From positions 1 through 48,506 of IMG/VR virus record IMGVR_UViG_3300029263_001080: a DNA stretch of 48,506 nucleotides; one strand, given 5' to 3'. The notes under the pieces were generated by a model, which was not told the DNA's origin, made no database searches, and saw only the letters and a program-made list of their open reading frames with translations. Made by a program: the position numbers and the translations under genes. Below are positions 21,573 to 41,246 of this stretch, piece by piece. The first letter of the stretch is position 1. The number at the start of each line of letters is the position of its first letter. The stretch is from a virus.

Positions 21573-24500
21573 ATGCCTACGTCTATTATAGAAACAAAAA
21601 TTATTGACACAAATTTGTTTTTTGGCTCACCCGACCGAATTAGAGACTTAGTTGGAGGCTTCTATGTTTTAACAGCTAGTAAGTTAGGACCCACAACAGT
21701 CTCTACGGTGGCCACCAATACTAACAATGGGACACCGACATTCGAGATTGCTAATGATGGGGTAATAAGAGGGACTAATTCTGACATTCATCTATCCAAT
21801 TATTTTGTATTCTCAAGAGTGTCTACTATCGATCCTAAATTTCTTAATGATCAATATTGGAGAAATTACGCTGTTGAAAACTTTACTATAAACTCCACTT
21901 TCTTTGATCACACAACACAAATCACTCTGCCAGCCACAAGGGATGATGAGCTTATTAATAGCAGAAGGTTTGCTGCCTCAAGACTCACTTATGTAAAGCC
22001 TGAATATTATCAGTTCTATGAAAGATACCAGAATAATCTTTCAAACGTAGCCTCAGAGCACTTGTTGCCGAATTACTACTTTTTAAAATCTCAAGGAATT
22101 GCTGATCTTGACATCGCCAAGATGATCACGCTTGAGGGAACAATAGCTGAAGATTACTTTGACTATGTTAGCTTCGTAGATGAATTGATAGCAGAGCAAC
22201 CAATTTTGTTGGCATTATCAGCGGTAGCGGCTGGGAGACTGGGAGGAACCACAGAAGAAATAATTCAAAATTTAATTAATTTTCTATTTGGAACTGAAGT
22301 TTCTGACCCGGCATCCACTTCACAGATAAACACCTTATTTTCAAATGTCGCAAGCGACAAAGATGTGCCGAGATACAGCTATAATAACATAAAAAAATAC
22401 CTAAATGTAGACTACGTCAACCACACCTATTCAGCCACAACGGCTCAGAGGCTACAAATAAGATTGCAAAACATTATCTTTTTGGAACCTTCTATTCTTG
22501 CTGATTTAAACGATAACAAAATTGCAACTGATTTTTCTTTCTTAAGGAACGATAAAAAGCAGGCCGTTTATTCCTTGATGCCAATGTCTAATCATATTAG
22601 AATAGATGAAAGAATTACAGAAAAAACAAATGATAAATTTGCTGCCGTTATAAGAGATAGCAATTACCAAGGAAAACTTTTAAAAACCCTAAAAGAAGCG
22701 TTTTTGGATGAAATATCCTTAAAGCCTGTCTTGCGTCCTTTTGTTGTTGACAGGGTTATTGCCAGCCAGACCGAACTAAAGACTCTTGACATGATTGAGA
22801 TGCTGGTCTATAATTATAATAACTATCTATCGGAGACATCAAACTGTTTCTTTTTTGATTTAGCCACTGACGAGCAGAAAAAAGTTTTTGATTCAATCGG
22901 AGAATACAGGTTTGAAAACTCTGAAAGATCTGGCGATGTCTTAAATCATTCTGTAGAAGAAATAAATAAAATTTTTACAAGCTTAAACATGGATGTTTTG
23001 ATCACAAGAAGTGCGGTAGAAATGCTTAATCTGTCTAACACAGATAAGTACACTGAGACCATAGCTTTCCGAGTTGAAAAAATTGGAGGACCTCCGACAG
23101 GAGACTCTAGAACAGAAAATGTGTTACAAAACTTTTGGTTTTATAACACTGGTGAGCTAATTGAATACATAGACTCACAAGTAAAATATGGCACTGACTA
23201 CACTTACAAGACTTATGCTTATGTAATCGTGGTTGGTAACAAGTATCAATATACGGATTTGAGACTTACAAGGCAGATAGACATTCAGGAAACAGAAACT
23301 GACTATGGCACTGCAACAAATTATTGTCTTGAGTTTTATGATCCAACGACCGGCGAAACTGTTTCTCAATTATTTGAAGGGCAGACAAATTTAGCTAATG
23401 AATTGGATGTTGCTTTTGGTAGAAGCCAGCGAGCTTTCGATGCCCTCGCAGAATACATCAGAAATCGACTTGACGAAGAAATTATAATTCGCATCGATGC
23501 CATAGACTACAGTTCTATCACAACAAATGTAACCTACGCCGGATTGACTATTCTTGAAGCAATCCAGAAAGCAGTAACAATTGGCGATATGATAACGGCA
23601 ACTGCATTGGCTGCCTTCTTGGGACAAGAAGTCTCTAGAATCACTGGGGAAGCAAACCAAGACTTCCTGCCATTTGTGGAAAATCTAAAAGAAGCATTCG
23701 GTGCGTTTGAAAATATCCTAGCCACAAACGCGCAAATTACTTCTGCGTTTCCTTACTTGGCAGATTTTAAGCTAACTGTCGAGCCCTCTGCAAAAATTGT
23801 AGAAGTTCCAATTCAAGAAAAAACATTTAAGATTCTTGATAACCCGCCAAATGACCTAATAGCAACCCCACACCACCTTAAAGATCAAAGCAATCGACTA
23901 TCCTTTTTCTTGTCTTATGACACATTCTCACCAAACACTGTGCCCTATCCAGTCGCGTTAACCGTGCAAGATGATCAAAATAAAATTGACTATCTAACTG
24001 GGCTGGGAATCTCTGAAAATGATTTTATGCAAGATGAATCAGTCTCGATGGCAGAAACCTTTGAAGTCTATCGCTTATCAAAGATGCCCGCCTCTTACCA
24101 AGATTTTGAAGACAATCTTAGACAATCCATCGACTTGAGAATTCTAAAGAATGATAAAATCAAACTTGATGCGATATTTACTGAGCGAGTGAGACCAAAT
24201 CAAAAATACTACTACACCTTCCGCGCCATCAACGAAAACGGCATAGCAGGAGAGTTCACCCCAATCTTTGAGGCTGAACTAATCAATGACGGAGGCTATG
24301 TTTATGGAAACTTCAATCAATTGATGGCAGAAGACTTGGTCACAGATAACATTTCTGAGCCACTAATGTCTTTCAAGAAACTACTTAATGTCGTCCCCAA
24401 CATCCAGCACCTTCTACTACAATCGAATGACGCTGACTTTTCTGATTCCGCATTTAGCCAAGTTGAAAACTTCAGTCTCGGTGCCGAAGACAACGAAGAT

Positions 24501-29942: not shown

Positions 29943-30872
29943 ATGAAGCACTCTTTTACCAGAGAACAAATAAAAAGAATTATTGTTGAAGAATTGGCAC
30001 GCTCAAATGACGAAGACGAAGCCAAAGAGTTACTTCAAAAAATCATAGGATTAAATGAAGACGAGGCAGACGAGTTTGAGGTAAAGCTAAAGAAAGCAAA
30101 TAGTTTTAGAAAAATGGCGGGAATTTCTCTCCTGGGTGCTGTGGCAATCTTGTTTGGCGGAATGAGTGCATTGGACAACTCCCAAGAACAAAAAGTCCAA
30201 CAAGACATAGAACAGGTCCAACAACTTGACAATGAGACACTGGAGCGTTTTGGAGTGGACACAGGCGCACTCGCAGGCTTTGAAGAGCGCCCACAATTCT
30301 CTAACTCAGAATACCCAACAGCAAAGCTTGGCCTTGCTGATTTGAGCGATTTGGGCAATAACGAAAAGATTGAAGTTCTGTGGGATCAGATAGACGATAT
30401 GGTCGGCAGGGGGCAGTTGAAATACGAAAGAGCGAGAGTTAGTTCGCCTCTCCCCGGCGGGATGGCAGCGCTCAACTATAACGACATCCCATCAAATCTA
30501 CAAATGCCCAATTCCCTTACAACCAAAGATCGCTATCGTGCGTGGCTTGTTCAGAACATCCTAAAGGGAGATCAGAGCAATATCGGCGACTTAAAGAAAT
30601 TTGTTTTTGGAAACACCGGCAAATGGCCATCTGGCTCCGGTAATCAAAAAAGTAGATATTCCGGCAAAGCACAAGTCCTGCCACCCGAGTGGAGTGTAGC
30701 TTACGAGCTTTATGGAGATCTTGCCGAAGAACAAGTGAACGACACCGCACAGGCCCTAAGAGATCCAGACACCAGAGACAGCGTCATTCAAGGATTGGGC
30801 GCCGAGAACGAAGAGCAAGCAATTAAATTCCTTAACGACATCCTCTATCAAGCGGGCCGCCAAGAGCGTTGA
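29943..30872 (+). CDS. Membrane-anchored protein with possible head-targeting N-terminus
   Basis: This 309-residue protein begins 2 bases after primase. The N-terminus 'FTREQIKRIIVEELARS' resembles the MKITKxxLKxIIKEE tag shared by several small proteins of this genome. A single hydrophobic segment follows at about residues 58-76 ('MAGISLLGAVAILFGGMSAL'). The rest is soluble, charged and Gln/Asp/Glu-rich ('VQQDIEQVQQLDNETLERFG'), partly coiled. I recognise no family. If the tag is real it would be an internal head protein, perhaps ejected with the DNA. A host-membrane protein is an equally simple reading of the hydrophobic segment. Confidence 0.7.
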   Translation: MKHSFTREQIKRIIVEELARSNDEDEAKELLQKIIGLNEDEADEFEVKLKKANSFRKMAGISLLGAVAILFGGMSALDNSQEQKVQQDIEQVQQLDNETLERFGVDTGALAGFEERPQFSNSEYPTAKLGLADLSDLGNNEKIEVLWDQIDDMVGRGQLKYERARVSSPLPGGMAALNYNDIPSNLQMPNSLTTKDRYRAWLVQNILKGDQSNIGDLKKFVFGNTGKWPSGSGNQKSRYSGKAQVLPPEWSVAYELYGDLAEEQVNDTAQALRDPDTRDSVIQGLGAENEEQAIKFLNDILYQAGRQER

Positions 30873-30896
30873 CAAATCCAGCAGACGTGTTATAAT
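30869..30896 (+). promoter_or_regulatory. Consensus sigma70 promoter
   Basis: TTGACA at 30869-30874 and TATAAT at 30891-30896 are exact matches to the bacterial -35 and -10 consensus, separated by 16 bp. The -35 box overlaps the stop codon of the upstream gene. Transcription would start near 30903, at the CTGGAGG ribosome-binding site of the gene at 30913, giving a very short leader. It would drive the small exported protein, the nuclease fusion and the FtsZ-like gene with unmodified host RNA polymerase. It is the only perfect pair I found in the window. Confidence 0.8.
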
Positions 30897-30912: not shown

Positions 30913-31122
30913 ATGAATAGAAACAAGAAGCACCTGCTGGCGCCCCTTGCGCTTATCGCCGCATTTGGATTCTCCTATGTCTCCGTTGCGGCACTTACGG
31001 CACTTACGGTAGCTGAAGCAGAAGCAGAAGCAGGCCCCACTATTGAGAGTCTATCGGCTTGGTACGCCTCACGGCATCCAGACGCAACCCCTTGGGAAAC
31101 TTGTGAACAGGAGACAAATTGA
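30913..31122 (+). CDS. Small exported protein of unknown function
   Basis: This 69-residue protein has a CTGGAGG site 6 bases upstream, directly behind the consensus promoter. The N-terminus is a signal peptide: basic 'MNRNKKH', then a hydrophobic run 'LLAPLALIAAFGFSYVSVAA'. An Ala/Glu stretch and 'GPTIESLSAWYASRHPDATP' follow, with one Cys near the end, so the mature part is only about 30-40 residues. The DNA here carries short tandem repeats: 9 bp twice (30992-31009) and GAAGCA three times (31015-31032). Its stop overlaps the TTG start of the nuclease gene. A membrane-bound or periplasmic early protein is likely; function unknown. Confidence 0.68.
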   Translation: MNRNKKHLLAPLALIAAFGFSYVSVAALTALTVAEAEAEAGPTIESLSAWYASRHPDATPWETCEQETN

Positions 31123-34100
31123 AACGTCCACCTATTAAGATAGCGCACATTGCTGACACACACATTAAAAATCTCAAGTATCACGAAGACTATCGTGAGT
31201 GTTTTGATGAAATGTATGAGATCTTGCGAGAGCAAGAGGTAGACTACATCGTTCATTGTGGTGACATCGCACACACAAAAACACAAATCTCACCAGAATT
31301 TGTAGAGATGGCGTCCGACTTTTTCAGCAATCTAAGCAAGATTGCAACCACTTTTATTATTTTAGGAAACCACGACGGCAATTTAAAGAACGCAAATCGC
31401 CAGGATGCTATCACGCCCATCATCCAGGCGCTTAATAGTCCCTATCTTCGTCTGCTAAAGAACTCTGGCGAGACCTCTCCCCCTTTCGGCAATGTCGTCC
31501 TGAATGTCCTATCGGTGTTTGACCGAGACAATTGGGTTCAGCCCACCGATCCAGACAAGATTAACATCGCCCTCTATCACGGCGCTATCTCCAACTGCCA
31601 GACAGACGCTGGTTGGACGATGGAGCACGGAGAAGACAATCTCTCTATCTTTGAGGAGTTCGATTTTGCTATGCTTGGTGACATTCATAAGCGTCAATTT
31701 TTGGATGATGAGAGGCGAGTCTATTACCCCGGCTCAACTATCCAGCAGAACCACGGCGAGAGCAACGACAAGGGTTTTTCCGTCTGGACTATCAACTCCA
31801 AGGACGATTGGGACATTGAGCACTTTACGCTCCAGAACCCTCGCCCATTCGTTACGATTGAGCTTACACCTACTGGCAAGATCTCCCGCAAGGCTTCTGT
31901 GCCTTCTGGTGCTCGCCTTCGTCTTGTTAGCAACAACAATCTAGCCCTCGACATTATGAAGAAGGCTGTTGATGTTGCCCGTCACAAGTTCAAGCCAGAA
32001 TCTATTTCTTTCCTTAATCGTGCTGCTGGTCAGCGTGGCGATGTGGACGAGTTGACAGATGGCCTTGGCTTCCAGAACCTACGAGATCCAGAAGTTCAGC
32101 AGGAGCTTATCTCAGAATATCTCAAGGACTATCAGGTTAAGGCAGAGACCATGGCAAAAGTTTATCAACTCAATTCAAAATACAATCAGGTCGTAGAATC
32201 AAAAGAAGACATCAGTCGAAATGTAAACTGGAAACTTGTAAACTTTGAGTGGTCCAATCTGTTTAACTATGGCAAAAACAATTCTATTGACTTTGCCAAG
32301 ACTGGCGGCATTATCGGCATCTTCGGGAAGAACTTCTCAGGCAAGTCTTCGGTGATTGACGCTATTCTTTTTACGATGTTCAACACAACATCTAAGAACG
32401 AGCGCAAGAATGTTAATGTTGTAAATCAGAACCTCAATTGGGGCGAGGGTAAGCTAAAAATCCAGATTGGAAACAAAATTTACTCTATTCATCGCAAGGT
32501 CACAAAATACATCAAGAAAGGCAAAGACGGCGAAAGCACTGAAGCCAAGACCGAATTGGAGTTTAGCGTCTATGACCCGGTTATGGATGAAGAAACTTCC
32601 CTAAACGGAATAACTCGCAACCAAACGGACGCTAACATTCGTAGGCACTTTGGTTCTATTGACGACTTCCTTATCTCGTCTATGTCGTCACAGCACGGTG
32701 CCCTTACCTTTATCAACGAAGGCTCAACCAAGCGCAAAGAAATCATTGCCAAGTTCCTAGACCTTCAGTTCTTTGACAAGAAGTTCAAGTTGGCCAAGGA
32801 CGATGCTGGTTCATCCAAGGCGCTCGTTAAAAAACTATCCGGGCGAGACTATGAAAAAGAAATCGTGGAAGCACAAGAAGCCCTTGAAGGCTTCAAAAAG
32901 ACCATTTCTTTGGCGGAAGCAGAAGAAAAGCTGATAGAAACGAAGCTGGCTACAAATCGCACCTTGTTAAATGAGACTTCTCACAAGATCACAGACATCC
33001 CAACAGAGGCGATAGACATCCACTCTGTTCAGTCTGAGATAAGAAAAACAAAAAATCAGATCATTTCTTTGTCTGATTCGGTGATTGAAGACAGCGAGCA
33101 ACTAAATAGTGAGAGGGAGCGTTTTAATAAGATCACTAATCTGATGGCGACATTAGATCACGAGACTCTTGTCAATTCTCTTTCAACTATTCAACAAACT
33201 GAATGGGAAATAACTAATTTCACAAATCAGTTGGAGATTGCGACCGAGAAGAAGAAACTATTAGACGACATTCCTTGCGGCTCCTCCTACCCTGTTTGCA
33301 AGTTTATCCGTGATGCTCACGTCGCCACAGCGACGATTCCAGAAGTGGAAACAAAAATGGATAAACTTCGTGATGTTCTAAAAGATCTCGACCCCGAGAT
33401 TGTTAGAGATCATCTAGACAAGTATCATAAGCTTGAGACAAAGCGAGTAAGAACCCAAAGCCTTGTAAAGGATTTGGAGCTTGCGGTTGAGAAGAGCCGG
33501 AATGCTTCCGAGCGGTTAAACGTAAAGATGCAGGAGCTTGGCACAAAGCAGTCTGAATATGACGACAACAAAGAAGCAATCGAGAATCTAGAAAAACTAT
33601 TAAAGGAGAAGAACACCTATGCCCAAGAAATCAAATCAATTGAGAAACAAGCTAAATCAAATAGCCAGAAGAAGATTGATCTTTACAAATCTCTCGGCTC
33701 AGAAGAGCAAAGAATTGAAAGCATCAAAGAAAGAAGACTAGAGTTTCAAAGCCTCCAGTCAGAATACGCTGCTTACGATCTGTTTCTGCGCTGTATGCAT
33801 CCTAACGGAATTGCTTATGACATCATTAAGCAGAAACTACCTGTAATCAATGAAGAAATCGGAAAGATCTTATCAAATGTTGTAGAATTTGAGATCTTTT
33901 TTGAGACCTCTGGGAATAAGTTTGATATCTTTATCAAGCATCCCAAGCACGAAGCCCGGCCCATTGAAATGGCGTCGGGAGCAGAAAAGTCGATGGCTGC
34001 TATGGCCATTCGGCTTGCCCTGCTGTCCGTGTCTTCTCTACCAAAGGGGGACATTTTTGTGCTTGATGAGCCCGGCACTTCCCTTGACGAAGAGAATATG

Positions 34101-34244
34101 GCAGGATTTATTCGGATCTTAGAACTAATTAAAGTATATTTCAAGAACGTCTTACTTATCTCTCATCTTGATTCACTCAAAGATAGTGTCGACATGCAGA
34201 TTGTAATTGAGAAAGACAAAGGATTCGCAAAGGTAAACCAATAA
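31119..34244 (+). CDS. Mre11-Rad50 (gp47-gp46) type nuclease/ATPase fusion
   Basis: One 1,041-residue chain carries both subunits of the recombination nuclease that T4 encodes as gp47 and gp46 (SbcD/SbcC in bacteria). Residues 1 to about 340 are the calcineurin-like phosphoesterase: 'IADTHIKN' (Asp13, His15), 'HCGDIAH' (Asp49), 'LGNHDGNL' (84-86), 'LYHGAIS' and 'LGDIHKRQ'. From about 385 follows the ABC-ATPase: Walker A 'GKNFSGKSS' (about 403-411), a long coiled coil with a Cys-x6-Cys element at about 719-726, signature 'ASGAEKSMAAMAIRLAL' (about 951) and Walker B 'IFVLDEPGTSLDEEN' (about 979). It would resect DNA ends for recombination-dependent replication. TTG start overlaps the previous stop. 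No frameshift or internal stop splits it. Confidence 0.92.
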   Translation: MKRPPIKIAHIADTHIKNLKYHEDYRECFDEMYEILREQEVDYIVHCGDIAHTKTQISPEFVEMASDFFSNLSKIATTFIILGNHDGNLKNANRQDAITPIIQALNSPYLRLLKNSGETSPPFGNVVLNVLSVFDRDNWVQPTDPDKINIALYHGAISNCQTDAGWTMEHGEDNLSIFEEFDFAMLGDIHKRQFLDDERRVYYPGSTIQQNHGESNDKGFSVWTINSKDDWDIEHFTLQNPRPFVTIELTPTGKISRKASVPSGARLRLVSNNNLALDIMKKAVDVARHKFKPESISFLNRAAGQRGDVDELTDGLGFQNLRDPEVQQELISEYLKDYQVKAETMAKVYQLNSKYNQVVESKEDISRNVNWKLVNFEWSNLFNYGKNNSIDFAKTGGIIGIFGKNFSGKSSVIDAILFTMFNTTSKNERKNVNVVNQNLNWGEGKLKIQIGNKIYSIHRKVTKYIKKGKDGESTEAKTELEFSVYDPVMDEETSLNGITRNQTDANIRRHFGSIDDFLISSMSSQHGALTFINEGSTKRKEIIAKFLDLQFFDKKFKLAKDDAGSSKALVKKLSGRDYEKEIVEAQEALEGFKKTISLAEAEEKLIETKLATNRTLLNETSHKITDIPTEAIDIHSVQSEIRKTKNQIISLSDSVIEDSEQLNSERERFNKITNLMATLDHETLVNSLSTIQQTEWEITNFTNQLEIATEKKKLLDDIPCGSSYPVCKFIRDAHVATATIPEVETKMDKLRDVLKDLDPEIVRDHLDKYHKLETKRVRTQSLVKDLELAVEKSRNASERLNVKMQELGTKQSEYDDNKEAIENLEKLLKEKNTYAQEIKSIEKQAKSNSQKKIDLYKSLGSEEQRIESIKERRLEFQSLQSEYAAYDLFLRCMHPNGIAYDIIKQKLPVINEEIGKILSNVVEFEIFFETSGNKFDIFIKHPKHEARPIEMASGAEKSMAAMAIRLALLSVSSLPKGDIFVLDEPGTSLDEENMAGFIRILELIKVYFKNVLLISHLDSLKDSVDMQIVIEKDKGFAKVNQ

Positions 34245-34459
34245 TGAAAATCACAAAGAACAGGCTAAAAGAGATTATTAAAGAAGAGGTAGAAAACTTT
34301 TACTCTGATTATGATGAGGACCCTGTTAAAGCGCTTGAAAAGAGGCGCGAAGAATTAAAAGCAAAAATCATCAAGTCTGGCGATATGGATGACGTTGAAC
34401 TTTACAAGAAATTAGGCAGAGAACTATACAAATTGAAAAATCAAAGGGATAGCCAATGA
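34244..34459 (+). CDS. Small tagged protein, putative internal head protein
   Basis: This 71-residue protein starts on the stop of the nuclease fusion (taATGa). Residues 1-16 are 'MKITKNRLKEIIKEEV', a copy of the shared N-terminal tag. The body is a charged helix ('EKRREELKAKIIKSGDMDDV', then 'LYKKLGRELYKLKNQRDSQ'), likely a coiled coil. Its stop overlaps the ATG of the FtsZ-like gene by 4 bp, so the two are translationally coupled. Head targeting is inferred from the tag; the helical body could bind DNA or the neighbouring GTPase. Confidence 0.72.
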   Translation: MKITKNRLKEIIKEEVENFYSDYDEDPVKALEKRREELKAKIIKSGDMDDVELYKKLGRELYKLKNQRDSQ

Positions 34460-35586
34460 GTGGCGAATTTGACTTTTTGCCACCAGCAGAAGCACCCCCA
34501 TCATTCAATCAAGAAAAAGACCACTTCCACGAAGAAGTAGAAGCGGAAGATTTTGGGATGGTTGAAGACTTCGGATTACAGATGGAATACTCTGACGAAG
34601 ATATGCTACCCGAGAACACAGCCCCATCATCTATAAACGTGGGCTTTGTTGGTGTTGGAGGTGGCGGAAACAAGATGGCAAATGCTATGATTGAGTTGGG
34701 TTTCAACAAGACCCTGCTTGTCAACAGCACAGGTAAAGACATTCCAAAGAATGTAGAAGAAGAGCATGTTGTTCTTATTCCCGATAGCGATGGCATCGGC
34801 AAGAACATAACCTACGGCAAAGAAGTTCTATCACAGAACGGCGCTATTATAGAAGATGCCCTTCGCATCAAGCTTGGCAAGGTTGACTGGCTGTTTGTTA
34901 TGGCAGGCGGTGGTGGCGGCACTGGTTCGTCCGTTGTCGCTCTCCAGCCCGTGTTTGAGCGATACCTTCAGTCCGTTCAGGCAAGTGGCAAGGTCGTTTA
35001 CATCGTCTCTTGGCCAACAGCACAAGAGAATTTAAACCCAACGATAGCTCGCAACGCCCTATCGCTTGCTAATGATGTCACCCCTTACCCACACATCATT
35101 CTAGATAATGAGAGAGCCACACGCCTACTTCGCGGTCGTATAGGAATGCTAGGGATGTATCCAGTCGCAAACACACAGTTTGCCAAGTCATTCGCTCAGA
35201 TCCTAAAGTTATCTACCGAAGACTCCCCGATTCAGTCGTTTGATTCTAAGGACTTAGAGACCTGCTTTGGTAAAGATGGACGCGCCTTCATCGGCTCCAC
35301 AATGATTAAAGATCCCAACACGGGCAAACTTGGCACAACCATAATGTATAACTGTATGAACCGCTCTGCTTGTCCTCCACCGAAGGGGAAGGCAGCCGCA
35401 GGCTCTCTTATTCTCGTGGTTAGCGAAGAGATGGTCGCCGACCCTCGTATCTCTAAACACCTTGAGTCTGCGATTGCCTATGTCGGCGGTCGCTGCGAAA
35501 CACTTTTCTCTGGCGTTTATGTCAGAAAGAACGTCCCCGGATTGATTGCGATACTAAGTATGAATGGAATTCAAAAAGGAAAATAA
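34456..35586 (+). CDS. FtsZ/tubulin-superfamily GTPase
   Basis: This 376-residue protein has, after an acidic, probably disordered extension (residues 1-58), the FtsZ-like opening 'INVGFVGVGGGGNKMANAMI' (60-79). The tubulin signature 'GGGGGTGSSV' (151-160) binds GTP phosphates. 'SFDSKDLETCF' (261-271) matches the synergy (T7) loop of FtsZ with both acidic residues (Asp263, Asp266), so GTP hydrolysis on polymerisation is plausible. The C-terminal domain continues to 'GLIAILSMNGIQKGK', without the acidic C-terminal peptide by which bacterial FtsZ binds FtsA/ZipA. Phage tubulins (PhuZ, TubZ) move or centre DNA and capsids; the role here is unknown. It is coupled to a tagged small protein upstream, and three more tagged genes follow. 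Confidence 0.9.
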   Translation: MSGEFDFLPPAEAPPSFNQEKDHFHEEVEAEDFGMVEDFGLQMEYSDEDMLPENTAPSSINVGFVGVGGGGNKMANAMIELGFNKTLLVNSTGKDIPKNVEEEHVVLIPDSDGIGKNITYGKEVLSQNGAIIEDALRIKLGKVDWLFVMAGGGGGTGSSVVALQPVFERYLQSVQASGKVVYIVSWPTAQENLNPTIARNALSLANDVTPYPHIILDNERATRLLRGRIGMLGMYPVANTQFAKSFAQILKLSTEDSPIQSFDSKDLETCFGKDGRAFIGSTMIKDPNTGKLGTTIMYNCMNRSACPPPKGKAAAGSLILVVSEEMVADPRISKHLESAIAYVGGRCETLFSGVYVRKNVPGLIAILSMNGIQKGK

Positions 35587-35589
35587 ACA

Positions 35590-35637
35590 ATGAAAAAAAT
35601 CACAAAAGCAAAACTAAAACAGATTATTAAAGAAGAG
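35590..35637 (+). repeat. Dispersed repeat encoding the shared N-terminal tag
   Basis: The first about 45 bases of this gene are closely similar in DNA to the starts of other genes at 34244, 35862, 36464, 39386 and 45080. All contain a core close to AAAGCAAAACTAAAACAGAT followed by TATTAAAGAAGAG. Because nucleotide as well as protein identity is retained, the copies could act as recombination points that swap bodies behind a constant tag. Confidence 0.7.
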
Positions 35638-35862
35638 AGAGATATAGTTCTTTCCGAATTAGGATACAATAAACGCGATCCCATCGAAGACTTCGGAAAT
35701 ACCGGGAGGGGCGATACTACCATAGACGGCTATGAAGATCAGATAAAAGAAATGCTCACCCACCTCATTCAGAACGGAGAGCAAATTGAAGACATAAAAG
35801 CCATGTTGGGAGACATCATGATGATGCTGAATCTTGGTAAATTAGGAAGAGGTCCAGAATAG
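35590..35862 (+). CDS. Small tagged protein, putative internal head protein
   Basis: This 90-residue protein starts 3 bases after the FtsZ-like gene. Residues 1-16 are 'MKKITKAKLKQIIKEERD' (one Lys more than the other copies). The rest is acidic, with 'QIKEMLTHLIQNGEQIEDIK' and a Met-rich helix 'AMLGDIMMMLNLGKLG'. No membrane segment long enough for certainty. Its stop shares a base with the GTG start of the next tagged gene. It probably arose, like its neighbours, by attaching one tag to different bodies. Confidence 0.72.
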   Translation: MKKITKAKLKQIIKEERDIVLSELGYNKRDPIEDFGNTGRGDTTIDGYEDQIKEMLTHLIQNGEQIEDIKAMLGDIMMMLNLGKLGRGPE

Positions 35863-36380
35863 TGAAGATCACAAAAGCAGAACTAAAGAAGATTATTAAA
35901 GAAGAGCTTGAAGTGGTTCTCACCAACGAAGAGGTCGAAGAGATGTTTGGTGAAGATGTACGCGAGGAATTAGAACAAACACAAGAAGGATTCTTTGCAG
36001 GCGAATTTGATAAAAAATCACCAAAGAAGCCAAAGACCAACAGGCCGATGGACAAAAGCCAAAAAGAAAAAGACAATCTTGACAGATTCTATCAGGCTGT
36101 TAATAAAAGAATGCAAAAGAAAAAATTAACAGAGCCCAAGAAAGAAGAAAAGTCCAAGCTTGTTTCCACCTCCGCGCTCAAGGAGGCAATGACACCAAAT
36201 GACCAGTATCAGATGCAGATGAAACTCAATAGCGCGTTGAGAGAGTTTGTCCAAGAGTATATAGAAAGAAGCGAACTGGGCCAAGGACCTGAAGGTCTAA
36301 GCGAGAAAGATATCGAAAGAATTCGCAGCCACATAAACTATTTAGTAGAACAAGTTTTAGGATTTGGTAAGAAACTATAA
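35862..36380 (+). CDS. Tagged Lys/Glu-rich protein, putative internal head protein
   Basis: This 172-residue protein starts at GTG within the previous stop (taGTG). Residues 1-16 are 'MKITKAELKKIIKEELEV'. The middle is highly basic and likely disordered ('DKKSPKKPKTNRPMDKSQKE', then 'VNKRMQKKKLTEPKKEEK'), suitable for DNA contact. The C-terminus is a helical domain ('ALREFVQEYIERSELGQG', 'IERIRSHINYLVEQVLG'). T4 internal proteins are also small, basic and tagged, so the comparison is reasonable, but there is no direct homology that I can see. Confidence 0.74.
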   Translation: MKITKAELKKIIKEELEVVLTNEEVEEMFGEDVREELEQTQEGFFAGEFDKKSPKKPKTNRPMDKSQKEKDNLDRFYQAVNKRMQKKKLTEPKKEEKSKLVSTSALKEAMTPNDQYQMQMKLNSALREFVQEYIERSELGQGPEGLSEKDIERIRSHINYLVEQVLGFGKKL

Positions 36381-36463: not shown

Positions 36464-37012
36464 ATGAAAATCAAAAAATCAGAGCTACTTGCTCTAATCA
36501 AAGAAGAGATTATGGGTGAGATGGATGGTCTCACAATGATGGATGATCCCTATGACGATGCTGCTGTTCCAGATACAATGCAACGCGGTGGCGCTATGGA
36601 TCAGGTTGCCCAAGAAATGGAACAAATGATTACAGTCGAAATGGACGATGTTATTTCGATTATTTCAAACTATCTTGTTACCCAAGATAGCGCAGGCGCC
36701 CCCCAAAAGGCTGCAATGCGAGGAATGGCTATGCTTCGCGATGCTGGCTTCCGCGCCCCTGATCCCAGCACAATAGAGCAGATGATTTCACCCGAGATGG
36801 GAGACGAAGAGCCTATGATGCAGGAAGGTTTTGAAAACATCACCCCCGAGAATCTTGCAATCGTGGGAGATGTCGTCAAGAAAATGGCGCCGCTCCTTGG
36901 GGCTATGACTCTCCCTACCTTGATGCTCGCTATCCACAATGCCTTTAAGGCACAAGCAGGAACCGCTGAACAAGATAGAGGTGCGATTGAACAAGATAGA
37001 GGTGCGATGTGA
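36464..37012 (+). CDS. Tagged Met-rich protein, putative internal head protein
   Basis: 182 residues from ATG 36464. I prefer this start to the upstream TTG (36401) because AAAAGGAAAC lies at a suitable distance and the translation then begins with the tag 'MKIKKSELLALIKEEIMGE'. The protein is rich in Met, Asp and Glu. A hydrophobic helix 'MAPLLGAMTLPTLMLAIHNAF' (split here: MAPLLGAMTL, PTLMLAIHNAF) lies near the end. The last 15 codons hold a perfect 21-bp tandem duplication, giving EQDRGA twice. Function unknown; tag and hydrophobic helix would suit an internal protein that interacts with membranes during ejection. Confidence 0.72.
   Translation: MKIKKSELLALIKEEIMGEMDGLTMMDDPYDDAAVPDTMQRGGAMDQVAQEMEQMITVEMDDVISIISNYLVTQDSAGAPQKAAMRGMAMLRDAGFRAPDPSTIEQMISPEMGDEEPMMQEGFENITPENLAIVGDVVKKMAPLLGAMTLPTLMLAIHNAFKAQAGTAEQDRGAIEQDRGAM
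36967..37008 (+). repeat. Perfect 21-bp tandem duplication
   Basis: The unit at 36967-36987 is repeated exactly at 36988-37008. It adds seven codons in frame to the end of the tagged Met-rich protein. Each unit contains AGAGGT, and the second lies about 9 bases before ATG 37012, so the duplication also provides a ribosome-binding site for the holin-like gene. Exact identity suggests a recent event or ongoing slippage. Confidence 0.9.
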
Positions 37013-37212
37013 TGAGCAAAGAGCAAAAACAAGCACTACTCGACAGAAGTATACAAAAACTAACTTCCCGTAAACTGCTTGTGTGGCTTACAGCCACAGG
37101 TCTTATGGCTTTTGGCGGACTAGAATCAGCAGACTGGGTTATTATCTCTGGTCTGTATCTCGGTGGTCAATCCGTAATTGACGCTATTGTAAAACTAAAA
37201 GGACTAGAATAA
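37012..37212 (+). CDS. Holin-like small membrane protein
   Basis: 66 residues from ATG 37012, which overlaps the previous stop (TGATG); a GTG three bases earlier is less likely. After a charged N-terminus with 'KLTSRKLLVWLTATGLMAFG', a second hydrophobic segment 'ADWVIISGLYLGGQSVID' follows, then a short basic tail. Two short membrane segments, a small size and the 'LTSRK' and 'YLGGQSxxDA' elements are typical of small phage holins, which open the inner membrane at lysis. Spanin-like genes follow within 450 bp. No endolysin is recognised nearby. Confidence 0.6.
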   Translation: MSKEQKQALLDRSIQKLTSRKLLVWLTATGLMAFGGLESADWVIISGLYLGGQSVIDAIVKLKGLE

Positions 37213-37213
37213 A

Positions 37214-37612
37214 ATGAAACTTATAATGGAAAGCTGGAATAACTTCGTTAATGAAGAGGAGGCCAAGAGTTCATTCACTACTCCCGACACAGGACAAAAA
37301 ACAACAATTGAATTTTTAGGAATGAAAACAAAACATGACCAAACGGATGTTAATCTTCGGCTCGATGGCAAAGAAGACATAGAAACATACACAGCTTACG
37401 ATATTGACTCGCTAGCAGATTCAGTAATTTCCGACCTTGAAGAAAATTATGATGGTTATTGGTTTTTAGAAGATCAGCCCTACAATGAAAATTATATAAA
37501 AACTTTTAAAGCAAACTTGCTAAAAGTTTTAGAAGCCATAGGGGCAGATCCAGAAAAGGATGAACAAGATCGCGGATCTTATAGAGACAGAGACACAGGG
37601 GGGCTCTACTAA
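37214..37612 (+). CDS. Small acidic protein of unknown function
   Basis: This 132-residue protein starts one base after the holin-like gene. The N-terminus 'MKLIMESWNNFVNEEEAKSS' differs from the MKITK tag but resembles the short amphipathic targeting peptide of T4 internal proteins (MKTYQEFIAE) in size and in its acidic end; this is a weak resemblance. The body is soluble, acidic and mixed alpha/beta ('TTIEFLGMKTKHDQTDVNLR'), ending in a charged disordered tail. No motif recognised. Confidence 0.6.
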   Translation: MKLIMESWNNFVNEEEAKSSFTTPDTGQKTTIEFLGMKTKHDQTDVNLRLDGKEDIETYTAYDIDSLADSVISDLEENYDGYWFLEDQPYNENYIKTFKANLLKVLEAIGADPEKDEQDRGSYRDRDTGGLY

Positions 37613-37645
37613 TGAAACAAAGCCTGTTTATGCTTATGTCGCGTA

Positions 37646-38035
37646 TTGATTAATTTGAAAGAAAAAATTCTATCATTCTGTTTAAAACACTGGAAGGAGA
37701 TCGGGCTTGTCCTGCTCCTTCTTGTTGTGTTTGGTAAAAGCCGTTATGACGTGCTCAACATTATCAAAGCACACGAAGTCTCGCAGCAATCATTAAAGAC
37801 ACAGATAGAAGAGTTACAGGGCATCCACGCTGAAGAACTACAACAGCGAGATGAAGCCCTCGAAGAATACAGAATAAGAAATGAGAAGCTTGAGATGCGC
37901 TATCAAGATGCCTTGATTGATTTGTCAAACGAGATTGACAAAAAGAAGGAGCGTGTTATAAGAAACTATAGGGAAGACAAAGAAGCCCTTATCTTTCAGA
38001 TAGAAGACATCTACGGATTCACCTATGTTCCTTAG
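37646..38035 (+). CDS. Rz-like membrane protein with coiled coil
   Basis: 129 residues from TTG 37646. One N-terminal membrane segment ('WKEIGLVLLLLVVFG', about residues 16-30) is followed by a long charged coiled coil ('TQIEELQGIHAEELQQRDEA', 'LEEYRIRNEKLEMRYQDALI'). This is the layout of the inner-membrane spanin Rz. It overlaps the next gene by 11 bp in another frame, as Rz/Rz1 pairs often do, and lies close to the holin-like gene. The start is uncertain; no strong SD is visible. Another inner-membrane coiled-coil protein cannot be excluded. Confidence 0.55.
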   Translation: MINLKEKILSFCLKHWKEIGLVLLLLVVFGKSRYDVLNIIKAHEVSQQSLKTQIEELQGIHAEELQQRDEALEEYRIRNEKLEMRYQDALIDLSNEIDKKKERVIRNYREDKEALIFQIEDIYGFTYVP

Positions 38036-38432
38036 CTTATTGTTTATGATCTCGACTGCTGGCGCAAGCCCAGAGTTTTCTATTGTTGACGAAGGGGCGC
38101 TGTCCCCCATAGAGGGCGTTGTCTTTAACCCCGAGGCTTTGTCCGAGATTCTTACAGCACCACAGCGCGTGAAAGAAGAATGCGAGATCGAATGGATGAG
38201 AACGCTTGAAATAAAACAAAATGATTTCACTCTTGAGTTGGAGCAACAAATGATAAGATACAACTCCCTCAATAGAAAACACAACTTGATGATAATAGAA
38301 AAAGACACCGAGATTGTTGAGCTACAGAAGATCGTGAAGAAACAAGCCCCAGCCTATAAATGGATGTGGTTTGTAGGTGGTGTGGCCATCGGTGGCGCAA
38401 CTTACTATGGAATCCAACAGGCGGTTAAATGA
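38025..38432 (+). CDS. Exported coiled-coil protein with C-terminal membrane segment
   Basis: This 135-residue protein opens with a signal-like 'MFLSLLFMISTAGASPEF', has a charged coiled coil in the middle ('QQMIRYNSLNRKHNLMIIEK', 'DTEIVELQKIVKKQ') and ends in a hydrophobic segment 'WMWFVGGVAIGGATYYGIQ'. There is no lipobox Cys, so it is not a classical Rz1 outer-membrane spanin. Overlapping the Rz-like gene, it may be its partner or a single-chain spanin-like protein. It overlaps the next gene by 4 bp. Function inferred from layout only. Confidence 0.55.
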   Translation: MFLSLLFMISTAGASPEFSIVDEGALSPIEGVVFNPEALSEILTAPQRVKEECEIEWMRTLEIKQNDFTLELEQQMIRYNSLNRKHNLMIIEKDTEIVELQKIVKKQAPAYKWMWFVGGVAIGGATYYGIQQAVK

Positions 38433-39665: not shown

Positions 39666-41246
39666 ATGCCAAGATTAACGAAAAAGCAGATACTCAAAGA
39701 AGTCGTTAAGTGTGGTAAAGACCCCTCTTACTTCCTCAAGAACTATGCCCGCATCTCTCACCCGATGCACGGGCTTATGTTGTTTAAGACTTACGATTAT
39801 CAAGATGTCTTACTAGACGACTTCAATGATTACCGATTTAATGTAATCAACAAAGGGCGCCAGCTAGGAATTTCAACGATTACTGCTGGCTACATTGTTT
39901 GGATGATGTTGTTTCATAGAGACAAAGCCATCCTTGTTATGGCCACCAAGTTTGAAACAGCAGGCAACTTAGTTCGCAAAGTCAAAAACATAATGAAGAA
40001 CCTTCCTGACTGGATCAGGATTGCTAGCATCACAACTGATAACCGCACATCATTTGAGTTGTCTAATGGCTCCTCAATCAAGGCCGCCTCAACATCGGGC
40101 GACGCTGGTCGCTCTGAGGCTCTGTCCCTGCTTGTTCTTGATGAGGCAGGACACATTGAGGGTCTAGAAGATCTCTGGACTGGTCTTTACCCAACGCTAT
40201 CTACTGGTGGTCGCTGCATTGCAATCTCGACACCAAACGGCGTTGGTAACTGGTTCCACAAAACTTGTGTTGGCGCTGAGAGCAATGAAAATAATTTTCA
40301 TCTTACAACGCTTATGTGGGATGTCCATCCAGAAAGAGACGAAGATTGGTTCAAGAAAGAGACCAAGAACATGACCAAGCGCCAAATTGCGCAGGAGTTA
40401 GAATGTAACTTCAACACATCTGGTGAAACTGTTGTTGATCCGAAAAGCATAGAGTGGATGATGTCGCTTGTTAGAGAACCAAAGCACAGAACAGGCTTCG
40501 ACAGAAACTTCTGGATTTGGGAAGAGCACGACCCAAGCTGTAACTACCTTATAGCAGCCGATGTGGCTCGTGGCGATGGTGCCGATAATTCTACATTTCA
40601 CGTCTTAAAGCTTGAAACAATGGAGATTATTGGAGAATACCAGGGCAAACTCACACCCGATCTTTATGCGAATATGCTAAATCAAGTTGGAAGACAATTT
40701 GGAAATGCTATGATGGTAGTGGAGAACAATTCAATTGGCTACACTGTTATAGACAAACTTATAGAGTATGCTTATCCAAACCTTTACTATTCCATTAAAT
40801 CCACACACGAATATATTGACCAGCATATGGGAGAACATCAAAGCAATGCTATCGCAGGCTTCTCCACTACGTCAAAAACCAGACCTCTCATCGTAGCTAA
40901 GTTGGAAGAGTTTATAAGAAACAAACTAATTAAAATATATTCTTCGCGCTTAACAAACGAATTTAGAACATTCATTTGGAATAACGGAAAACCACAAGCA
41001 ATGAGGGGATACAACGACGATTTAGTAATGGCTCTTGCCATCTGCTGCTGGGTTAGAGACACAGCGCTACAAACAAGCGCAAGAGATTTGAATTACCAAA
41101 AGGCATTTGTTGATGCTATCATAACCTCTAAGACAACCTTTAACACCCAAATAAAAGGGCAAATAGGCTACACAGGCGAAGACTGCAATAGTAAAATGAA
41201 TGAAGCCCAGAATCTATATTCCCAATATATGTGGATAATAAAGTGA
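39666..41246 (+). CDS. 17: Terminase large subunit, gp17-like
   Basis: This 526-residue protein has the packaging ATPase domain with Walker A-like 'NKGRQLGIST' (about 62-71), Walker B 'LLVLDEAGHI' (155-164) and a coupling region 'IAISTPNGVGNWF'. 'QELECNFNTSGETV' leads into the nuclease domain, with Asp299 in 'AADVARGDGAD', Glu353 in 'VVENNSIG' and Asp451/Asp452 in 'NDDLVMALA'. It packs DNA into the prohead through the portal and cuts the concatemer. Its length is a little below T4 gp17 (610). It lies 9 bp before the portal; the tail sheath and tube genes that separate them in T4 are absent here. Confidence 0.95.
   Translation: MPRLTKKQILKEVVKCGKDPSYFLKNYARISHPMHGLMLFKTYDYQDVLLDDFNDYRFNVINKGRQLGISTITAGYIVWMMLFHRDKAILVMATKFETAGNLVRKVKNIMKNLPDWIRIASITTDNRTSFELSNGSSIKAASTSGDAGRSEALSLLVLDEAGHIEGLEDLWTGLYPTLSTGGRCIAISTPNGVGNWFHKTCVGAESNENNFHLTTLMWDVHPERDEDWFKKETKNMTKRQIAQELECNFNTSGETVVDPKSIEWMMSLVREPKHRTGFDRNFWIWEEHDPSCNYLIAADVARGDGADNSTFHVLKLETMEIIGEYQGKLTPDLYANMLNQVGRQFGNAMMVVENNSIGYTVIDKLIEYAYPNLYYSIKSTHEYIDQHMGEHQSNAIAGFSTTSKTRPLIVAKLEEFIRNKLIKIYSSRLTNEFRTFIWNNGKPQAMRGYNDDLVMALAICCWVRDTALQTSARDLNYQKAFVDAIITSKTTFNTQIKGQIGYTGEDCNSKMNEAQNLYSQYMWIIK

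Follow-up and report, generated by a model that had tools for sequence, protein, structure and literature searches.

A tubulin-superfamily GTPase with a conserved acidic N-terminal tail in marine T4-type phages

Introduction

Do ordinary large phages actively position their DNA and assembly sites in the infected cell? This question is made testable by a tubulin-like gene found in a viral record of 48,506 bases (hereinafter the window, meaning the whole stretch of DNA that was analysed). The phage tubulins seen so far belong to nucleus-forming phages (PhuZ) and plasmid-like phages (TubZ), and both form filaments that position DNA or virions (PMC5322520; PMC3678025). A survey of jumbo phages mentions two distinct tubulin types (PMC7824862), and according to another, of marine jumbo phages, tubulin is confined to the phiKZ-like cluster (PMC9123017). 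Remote viral relatives of the gene are already named 'FtsZ Cell division GTPase' in database entries, and gp138 of phage G has been annotated as FtsZ-like. However, we found no paper on tubulin/FtsZ homologues in marine T4-type phages in the open-licence PMC literature, nor did we find a described cytoskeleton for these phages in the literature.

The gene and its phage

The gene (34456-35586, plus strand) begins with an ATG and codes for a tubulin/FtsZ-superfamily GTPase of 376 residues (P0001), as recognized by Pfam, alignment and predicted structure. The opposite strand of this ORF is interrupted by many stops. That the ORF is not a chance one is indicated by its matches to the Pfam domain PF00091 and to FtsZ in the PDB, by at least 160 close relatives, and by synonymous sites that in most comparisons are close to saturation while the protein retains 81-97% identity. 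The T4-type affinity of the phage, proposed in the initial annotation, is confirmed by matches to the T4-type terminase large subunit (TerL), portal, prohead protease, baseplate wedge proteins and primase; of these, TerL (T4 gp17 type; 39666-41246, plus strand) was used as the marker of the phage group. The window is probably a fragment, because close relatives span 191-196 kb. In one related record of 194,231 bp the tubulin gene is divided between both ends, which circular permutation of the genome would produce.

Fold and catalytic residues

The PF00091 (Tubulin) model matches P0001 with 34 bits against a cut-off of 33 (E 4.8e-8) and is detected at E<=0.01 in 55 of the 56 family members, while a single-sequence search of the PDB recovers FtsZ chains as the best matches (1.3e-8). 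An AlphaFold model from a 56-sequence alignment, which reaches relatives as low as 22% identity, has a mean pLDDT of 90.6 and a pTM of 0.84, superseding a run with close relatives only (pLDDT 50.7). In the predicted model residues ~51-372 are well ordered, the first ~50 are disordered, and residues 57-376 form the two-domain tubulin fold with Z 26-32 against CetZ, TubZ and FtsZ. Structure prediction, suggested in the initial annotation as a check, hence yields a confident tubulin fold, and the membership of P0001 in the tubulin superfamily is practically certain.

The glycine loop, the GGGTGS signature and the acidic synergy loop that had been noticed in the sequence are all present, and their key positions are invariant in all 56 relatives: G68 and G71 in the glycine loop GVGGGGN (residues 66-72; 34651-34671), G154, G155 and G157 in the tubulin signature GGGGGTGSS (residues 151-159; 34906-34932), and N218 in DNER (residues 217-220; 35104-35115), all on the plus strand. 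DNER is aligned with PNDK of FtsZ and occupies the site of the N-[DE]-[KR] nucleotide-side motif of FtsZ and tubulin. Equally invariant are N90, D95, P187 and E191, as well as D263 and D266 of the T7 synergy loop FDSKD (residues 262-266; 35239-35253, plus strand; the acidic loop FDSKDLE extends over 262-268). The latter two residues align with the aspartates of NVDFAD in E. coli FtsZ. The T7 aspartate pair completes the GTPase site of the adjoining subunit; hence, the conservation of both aspartates together with the GGGTG loop in the 56 relatives is expected only if the subunits stack, and it strongly argues for GTP hydrolysis within the polymer. The earlier view that the GTP-binding and catalytic residues are intact is thus upheld, and from these residues it appears very likely that P0001 forms a GTP-dependent polymer.

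Phyletic distribution

A scan of viral contigs recovered at least 160 relatives, the best 80 of the 160 being 86-97% identical to P0001. Later scans extended the family to more distant members, namely L259 and L260 (84%), L295 (80%), L300 (55%), L289 (26%) and a phage G-like pair, and both L289 and L300 lead to subfamilies of at least 80 loci each. The relatives comprise Bacillus phage G gp138 and three uncultured viral subfamilies, which we term T (the window type, ~190 kb), M (the 26%-identical L289 type) and J (the jumbo L300 type, with records up to 293 kb). The phage G protein is the only relative in the annotated phage collection and the only one in a cultured phage; Microcystis phage Mel-JY01 and Flavobacterium phage immuto, the cultured phages whose TerL is closest (~44% identity), lack the gene. 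In 19 long records from T, J and M the gene is always single-copy.

When loci were instead picked by TerL, the gene was present in 19 of the 21 with enough upstream sequence. The two lacking it, L128 and L129 (TerL 92%), have no copy at the site or elsewhere in their 17-45 kb contigs; there, between 6055 and 6235, the gene for the recombination nuclease SbcCD (see below) runs directly into tagged genes with the tubulin gene cleanly absent, reflecting either natural deletion or ancestral absence. Among records picked by the J-type capsid protein, many of them fragments, 2 of 15 have the gene, and a 257-kb record is without it. Nearly every member of the window's clade thus has the gene, whereas its distribution beyond that clade is patchy, and its absence from L128, L129 and the 257-kb record shows that it is not indispensable.

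Relationship to known tubulins

Structural and profile comparisons place CetZ and TubZ, rather than FtsZ, nearest to the phage protein. A Foldseek search with the predicted model finds CetZ 3zid first (1.4e-20), followed by many FtsZ chains, and VIA structural comparison gives Z 32.3 for CetZ2, 32.0 for TubZ and 28.7 for the best FtsZ. Likewise, the family profile matches 3zid over its full length (6.5e-26), with TubZ 4ei7 second (3.8e-21) and FtsZ behind (5.6e-18).

P0001 shares with FtsZ the GTPase fold (Z ~28), the G-loop, GGGTG, the N-[DE]-[KR] motif and both T7 aspartates; however, it lacks the FtsZ C-terminal peptide and scores only 50.1 bits with the FtsZ equivalog model TIGR00065, whose cut-off is 295.2. 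In the tree the three FtsZ references form a 100/100 clade of their own with P0001 outside it, and an identity as bacterial FtsZ proper was accordingly rejected. Of the label FtsZ/tubulin-like in the initial annotation, the assignment to the tubulin-superfamily GTPases holds while that to FtsZ as such does not. The tree, a phylogeny that the same annotation had suggested, unites the T and J subfamilies in a 99.7/100 clade and places M and phage G elsewhere, on the side of TubZ, the split of CetZ/FtsZ from TubZ and the phage sequences having support of only 84/85. With only ten references, some of them incomplete sequences taken from PDB alignments, it excludes a placement in FtsZ and settles little else, PhuZ for example having no firm position in it.

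The archaeal CetZ proteins (PDB 3zid, 4b45, 4b46) provide the best full-length profile match, the best Foldseek match and the top VIA Z, and resemble P0001 in the GTPase loops and the T7 region; yet they are cellular proteins with ~20% identity to it, and a grouping with them is unsupported in the tree. The TubZ proteins of plasmid and phage partition (PDB 4ei7, 2xka, 4xcq; Z 28.9-32.0), themselves polymerising, DNA-moving GTPases, share the FD-type catalytic loop with P0001. They differ in having a C-terminal tail, which serves in partner binding and filament shaping (PMC5322520), whereas P0001 has an N-terminal tail instead and no visible TubR or tubC; the TubZ-like C-terminal domain PF22453 is found in 4 of the 56 family members, P0001 not being one of these. 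PhuZ of the nucleus-forming Chimalliviridae is comparable as a tubulin encoded by large tailed phages, with structural matches in BFVD at ~1e-10, but the TM is only ~0.5, and P0001 is devoid of the C-terminal acidic knuckle that PhuZ requires for assembly (PMC3678025). The PhuZ family model phrog_4733 does not match P0001 and reaches only E 0.03-0.05 in L300 and L289; PhuZ chains are also absent among the VIA matches listed, a limited list that excludes nothing. Moreover, neither chimallin nor the multisubunit RNA polymerase (PF00562) was found in any of 16 long carriers, while the phiKZ positive control was recovered, indicating that these are not nucleus-forming phages. An identity as PhuZ was therefore rejected as well: the family is neither bacterial FtsZ nor PhuZ.

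Within viruses, gp138 of Bacillus phage G ('putative FtsZ-like cell division protein') has the DNE[KR] and FDxxDL motifs in common with P0001, but it is only 22-26% identical, has a C-terminal extension and no N-terminal tail, and groups with TubZ. The best structural matches in BFVD, A0A6J5RW92 ('FtsZ Cell division GTPase', uncultured Caudovirales phage; 1.3e-21) and A0A8S5UFG9 (Myoviridae sp. ctcyQ27; 2.1e-20), are 15-18% identical and known by annotation only, no study of either having been found in the open-licence PMC literature.

Terminal tails

The only conserved appendage of the protein is an acidic N-terminal tail (residues 1-55; 34456-34620, plus strand), delineated by the alignment, tail statistics and a predicted disorder with pLDDT 51-64. 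This agrees with the acidic extension originally reported, there given as 58 residues and here as ~55. The T tail has the motifs DFGMVEDFG and EDMLPEN, in this order, and the J tail DDFDFVExYD followed by LP[ED]N; the motifs are shared between T and J despite an identity of only ~55%, and an LP[ED]N-like motif occurs in 92 of 92 T and 53 of 60 J members. In the M subfamily the tail is shorter (DIPTLDIEDYDP) and lacks LPEN. All three are net acidic, with a median acidic excess of 17 (T), 10.5 (J) and 11 (M). The tripeptide L51-P52-E53 at the end of the tail fits the [LI]xE pattern of T4-type prohead protease sites, which raised the prospect that the tail is a propeptide; because L088, L260 and several of the jumbo members have D at position 53, cleavage was dropped as a conserved function.

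At the other end the last strand of the predicted model finishes at residue 372 of 376, and T and J members stop 11-16 residues past the start of the last conserved motif. The FtsZ tail is accordingly missing, as first surmised, and the family is a further type of phage tubulin with its tail at the opposite end. When the membrane anchor of FtsZ was moved from the C- to the N-terminus, membrane bending and the direction (chirality) of the vortices were reversed (PMC5979038). By analogy, the N-terminal tail probably presents its cargo on a different face of the filament than the C-terminal tails do. A conserved N-tail in place of a C-tail thus offers a natural experiment on how tail position sets filament behaviour.

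Selective constraint

In seven pairwise comparisons the synonymous sites were mostly at or near saturation, while the tubulin proteins were 81-97% identical. The pN/pS of the tubulin gene (0.04-0.17) was the lowest of the compared genes in every pair: TerL ranged over 0.07-0.18, portal over 0.07-0.23, primase over 0.17-0.33 and SbcCD over 0.22-0.39, with RuvC also above tubulin. These loci had been picked by the tubulin gene itself, which in general biases its identity upward; among loci picked by TerL, with TerL at 83%, the score of the tubulin gene matches that in the closest relatives of the window. Judged by these ratios, the gene is under extreme purifying selection and is the slowest-changing one among those compared, a pattern that fits a polymer with several interfaces. 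The family places a tubulin that looks catalytically intact, and is more constrained than terminase and portal, in widespread marine T4-type phages.

Gene neighborhoods

Upstream of the tubulin gene the window encodes a 1041-residue fusion (31119-34244, plus strand) of the Mre11-type nuclease SbcD with the Rad50-type ATPase SbcC, corresponding to the recombination nuclease that T4 encodes in two separate genes, gp47 and gp46. The single-ORF SbcCD was found in 72 related loci and is, in the window's clade, the conserved gene on the upstream side: in 71 of the 72 T loci with both genes (the exception being L064) the tubulin gene lies downstream of it, sometimes with small genes between, and ~5 kb ahead of TerL. 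The run from SbcCD to tubulin is preceded by a sigma-70-type promoter, TTGACA-16-TATAAT (30869-30896, plus strand), matching in 12 of 12 positions, and sites with 11-12 matches lie within 700 nt upstream of SbcCD in 29 of 49 related loci (background expectation 0.066 per 700 nt). This suggests that the run may be expressed by the host RNA polymerase, the tubulin together with the recombination nuclease. A second perfect 12/12 promoter of this type is located at 22786 in the window, while the T4 late promoter ATAAATA gave no signal (8 sites against 7 expected).

The ATG of the tubulin gene at 34456 overlaps the stop of a 71-residue tagged ORF (MKITKNRLKEIIKEE; 34244-34459, plus strand), and downstream follow tagged ORFs of 90 (35590-35862) and 172 residues (35862-36380), both on the plus strand. 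The coupling to the 71-residue protein that had been pointed out is therefore real in the window, but this partner occurs in 0 of 86 related loci; the 90-residue ORF varies among relatives, so that neither of the two immediate tagged neighbors is conserved. Six small ORFs in the window (34244, 35590, 35862, 36464, 39386, 45080) start with a tag of the MKITKxxLKxIIKEE type, the tag being constant and the bodies variable. We take this tag to be reminiscent of the capsid-targeting sequences of T4, and it may be a capsid-targeting signal. At the end of one tagged ORF an exact 21-nt tandem duplication (36967-37008) encodes EQDRGA(I/M). Next to it begins a cassette of three conserved putative membrane proteins (37009-38432, plus strand), namely g67 (37009-37212), g129 (37646-38035), which is weakly Rz-spanin-like (E 0.027), and g135 (38025-38432).

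The setting differs in the other subfamilies. In M the tubulin gene sits inside an equivalent membrane-protein cassette just before TerL, and in several J loci (L417, L420, L435, L468, L480, L483) amid protease, scaffold, capsid and neck genes, whereas in the jumbo J genomes of 254-293 kb tens of kb separate it from the capsid gene, and PhoH is often nearby. Thus, the placement in a block of internal head proteins, as initially described, finds a parallel in relatives with the gene between major capsid protein, scaffold and neck genes, but does not extend to the many jumbo relatives in which it is far from head genes. Taken together, these settings point to a role in replication and assembly in general rather than to a single partner.

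Proposed function and alternatives

We propose, with a probability of about 0.5, that the protein forms filaments driven by GTP and through them organises the DNA of the phage or its assembly sites. Under this proposal a tubulin-like GTPase of a distinct family would be transcribed by the host and made in the infected cell, where its subunits would assemble head-to-tail into GTP-dependent filaments. The filament would hold or move phage DNA, i.e. the mass of replicating and recombining DNA, or the sites where DNA meets proheads, and the disordered acidic N-tail would contact cargo or adjoining subunits, unlike the C-tails of FtsZ, TubZ and PhuZ. Polymerisation is the likely part of this scheme on the strength of the residues; the cargo is a conjecture from context. 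The scheme as a whole is favored by the predicted fold, the conserved residues, the constraint, the single copy, the N-tail, the gene run with SbcCD and the absence of nucleus-marker genes. Against it count the want of a TubR-like partner, centromere-like repeats or a conserved small neighbor near the gene, the differing gene settings and the loss from some relatives. Of the roles initially put forward, a cytomotive filament for DNA or proheads is the best supported.

The protein could instead act in head assembly, as a GTPase on or in proheads. It would then form a polymer scaffold, or a ring for sorting, that serves the capsid, the internal proteins or packaging, and it may itself be packaged. 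The J loci with the gene among prohead protease, scaffold, major capsid protein and neck genes are consistent with this, as are the surrounding tagged small proteins in the window's clade, the proximity to TerL and the LPE motif of the tail. We nevertheless consider it unlikely: the large J genomes keep the gene far from capsid genes, the LPE motif is LPD in several members, the tubulin gene itself is untagged, and the conserved neighbor SbcCD is a DNA-metabolism gene. Rather less likely still is a TubZRC-like partition motor that segregates phage genomes in a plasmid-like or pseudolysogenic carrier state. TubZ is indeed among the closest folds and the second-best PDB profile match, and the phage G protein groups with it; however, there are no iterons near the gene (between 33.8 and 37.3 kb the sole multi-copy repeat family stems from the coding sequence of the protein tag), no conserved DNA-binding neighbor was seen beside it, the partner-binding C-tail is wanting along with PF22453, the L300 homologue has no plasmid match, and the gene set is of T4 type.

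A poison or decoy that co-assembles with host FtsZ and blocks or redirects division, the other role raised in the initial annotation, is highly improbable. Known phage division inhibitors do target FtsZ, and the GTPase domain is FtsZ-like, but those inhibitors are small unrelated proteins, and an identity of ~20% to FtsZ makes co-assembly unlikely. A poison would also not need its own catalytic loop, which is intact here, and an anti-host factor is expected to change fast, whereas this gene is under the strongest constraint of the locus. Least probable of all is a membrane- or lysis-linked filament working with g67, g129 and g135: in the window's clade this cassette lies downstream of the gene, the M gene lies within its equivalent, and g129 is weakly spanin-like, yet J has no such cassette beside the gene, and a disordered tail rich in acidic residues would anchor poorly in a membrane.

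Returning to the organising filament, many T4-related uncultured ocean viruses carry a slow-changing tubulin-like protein with intact GTPase residues, which suggests that phages without a 'phage nucleus' also build a cytoskeleton inside infected cells. A broader generalization is more tentative, and we hold it at somewhat less than even odds: T4-type phages without a nucleus would build their own tubulin cytoskeleton, in which a separate, N-tailed family of phage tubulins, with the tail probably on another filament face than that of FtsZ, would organise replication or packaging in a considerable fraction of oceanic phages and, within the window's clade, has come to rank among the proteins under the strongest constraint.

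Hosts and other features of the related genomes

The nearest cultured relatives by TerL, which might have indicated the host, infect Microcystis and Flavobacterium. A host among the Bacteroidota is argued against by Shine-Dalgarno-like sites, which precede 28-86% of the long ORFs (9-20% in shuffled sequences) as opposed to 0 of 20 in the Flavobacterium phage. The sole match of the gene in a genome is on a contig of a Flavobacteriaceae MAG; this contig probably derives from a phage and was binned with the MAG. The 16 records searched for psbA did not contain it. A related 195-kb genome encodes a phage tmRNA with the tag peptide ANNNNYFEQRLAA (L109:5525-5864), along with several tRNAs, and this tag peptide could help identify the host. 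Two jumbo relatives have further distinctive genes. That of 284 kb has an apparently complete ATP-type phosphoenolpyruvate carboxykinase (PF01293, 566 bits; L429:2913-4364) close to the tubulin gene, and that of 293 kb (L450) carries the gene for a T4 gp23-type major capsid protein twice in tandem, at 176341-180096 of its record.
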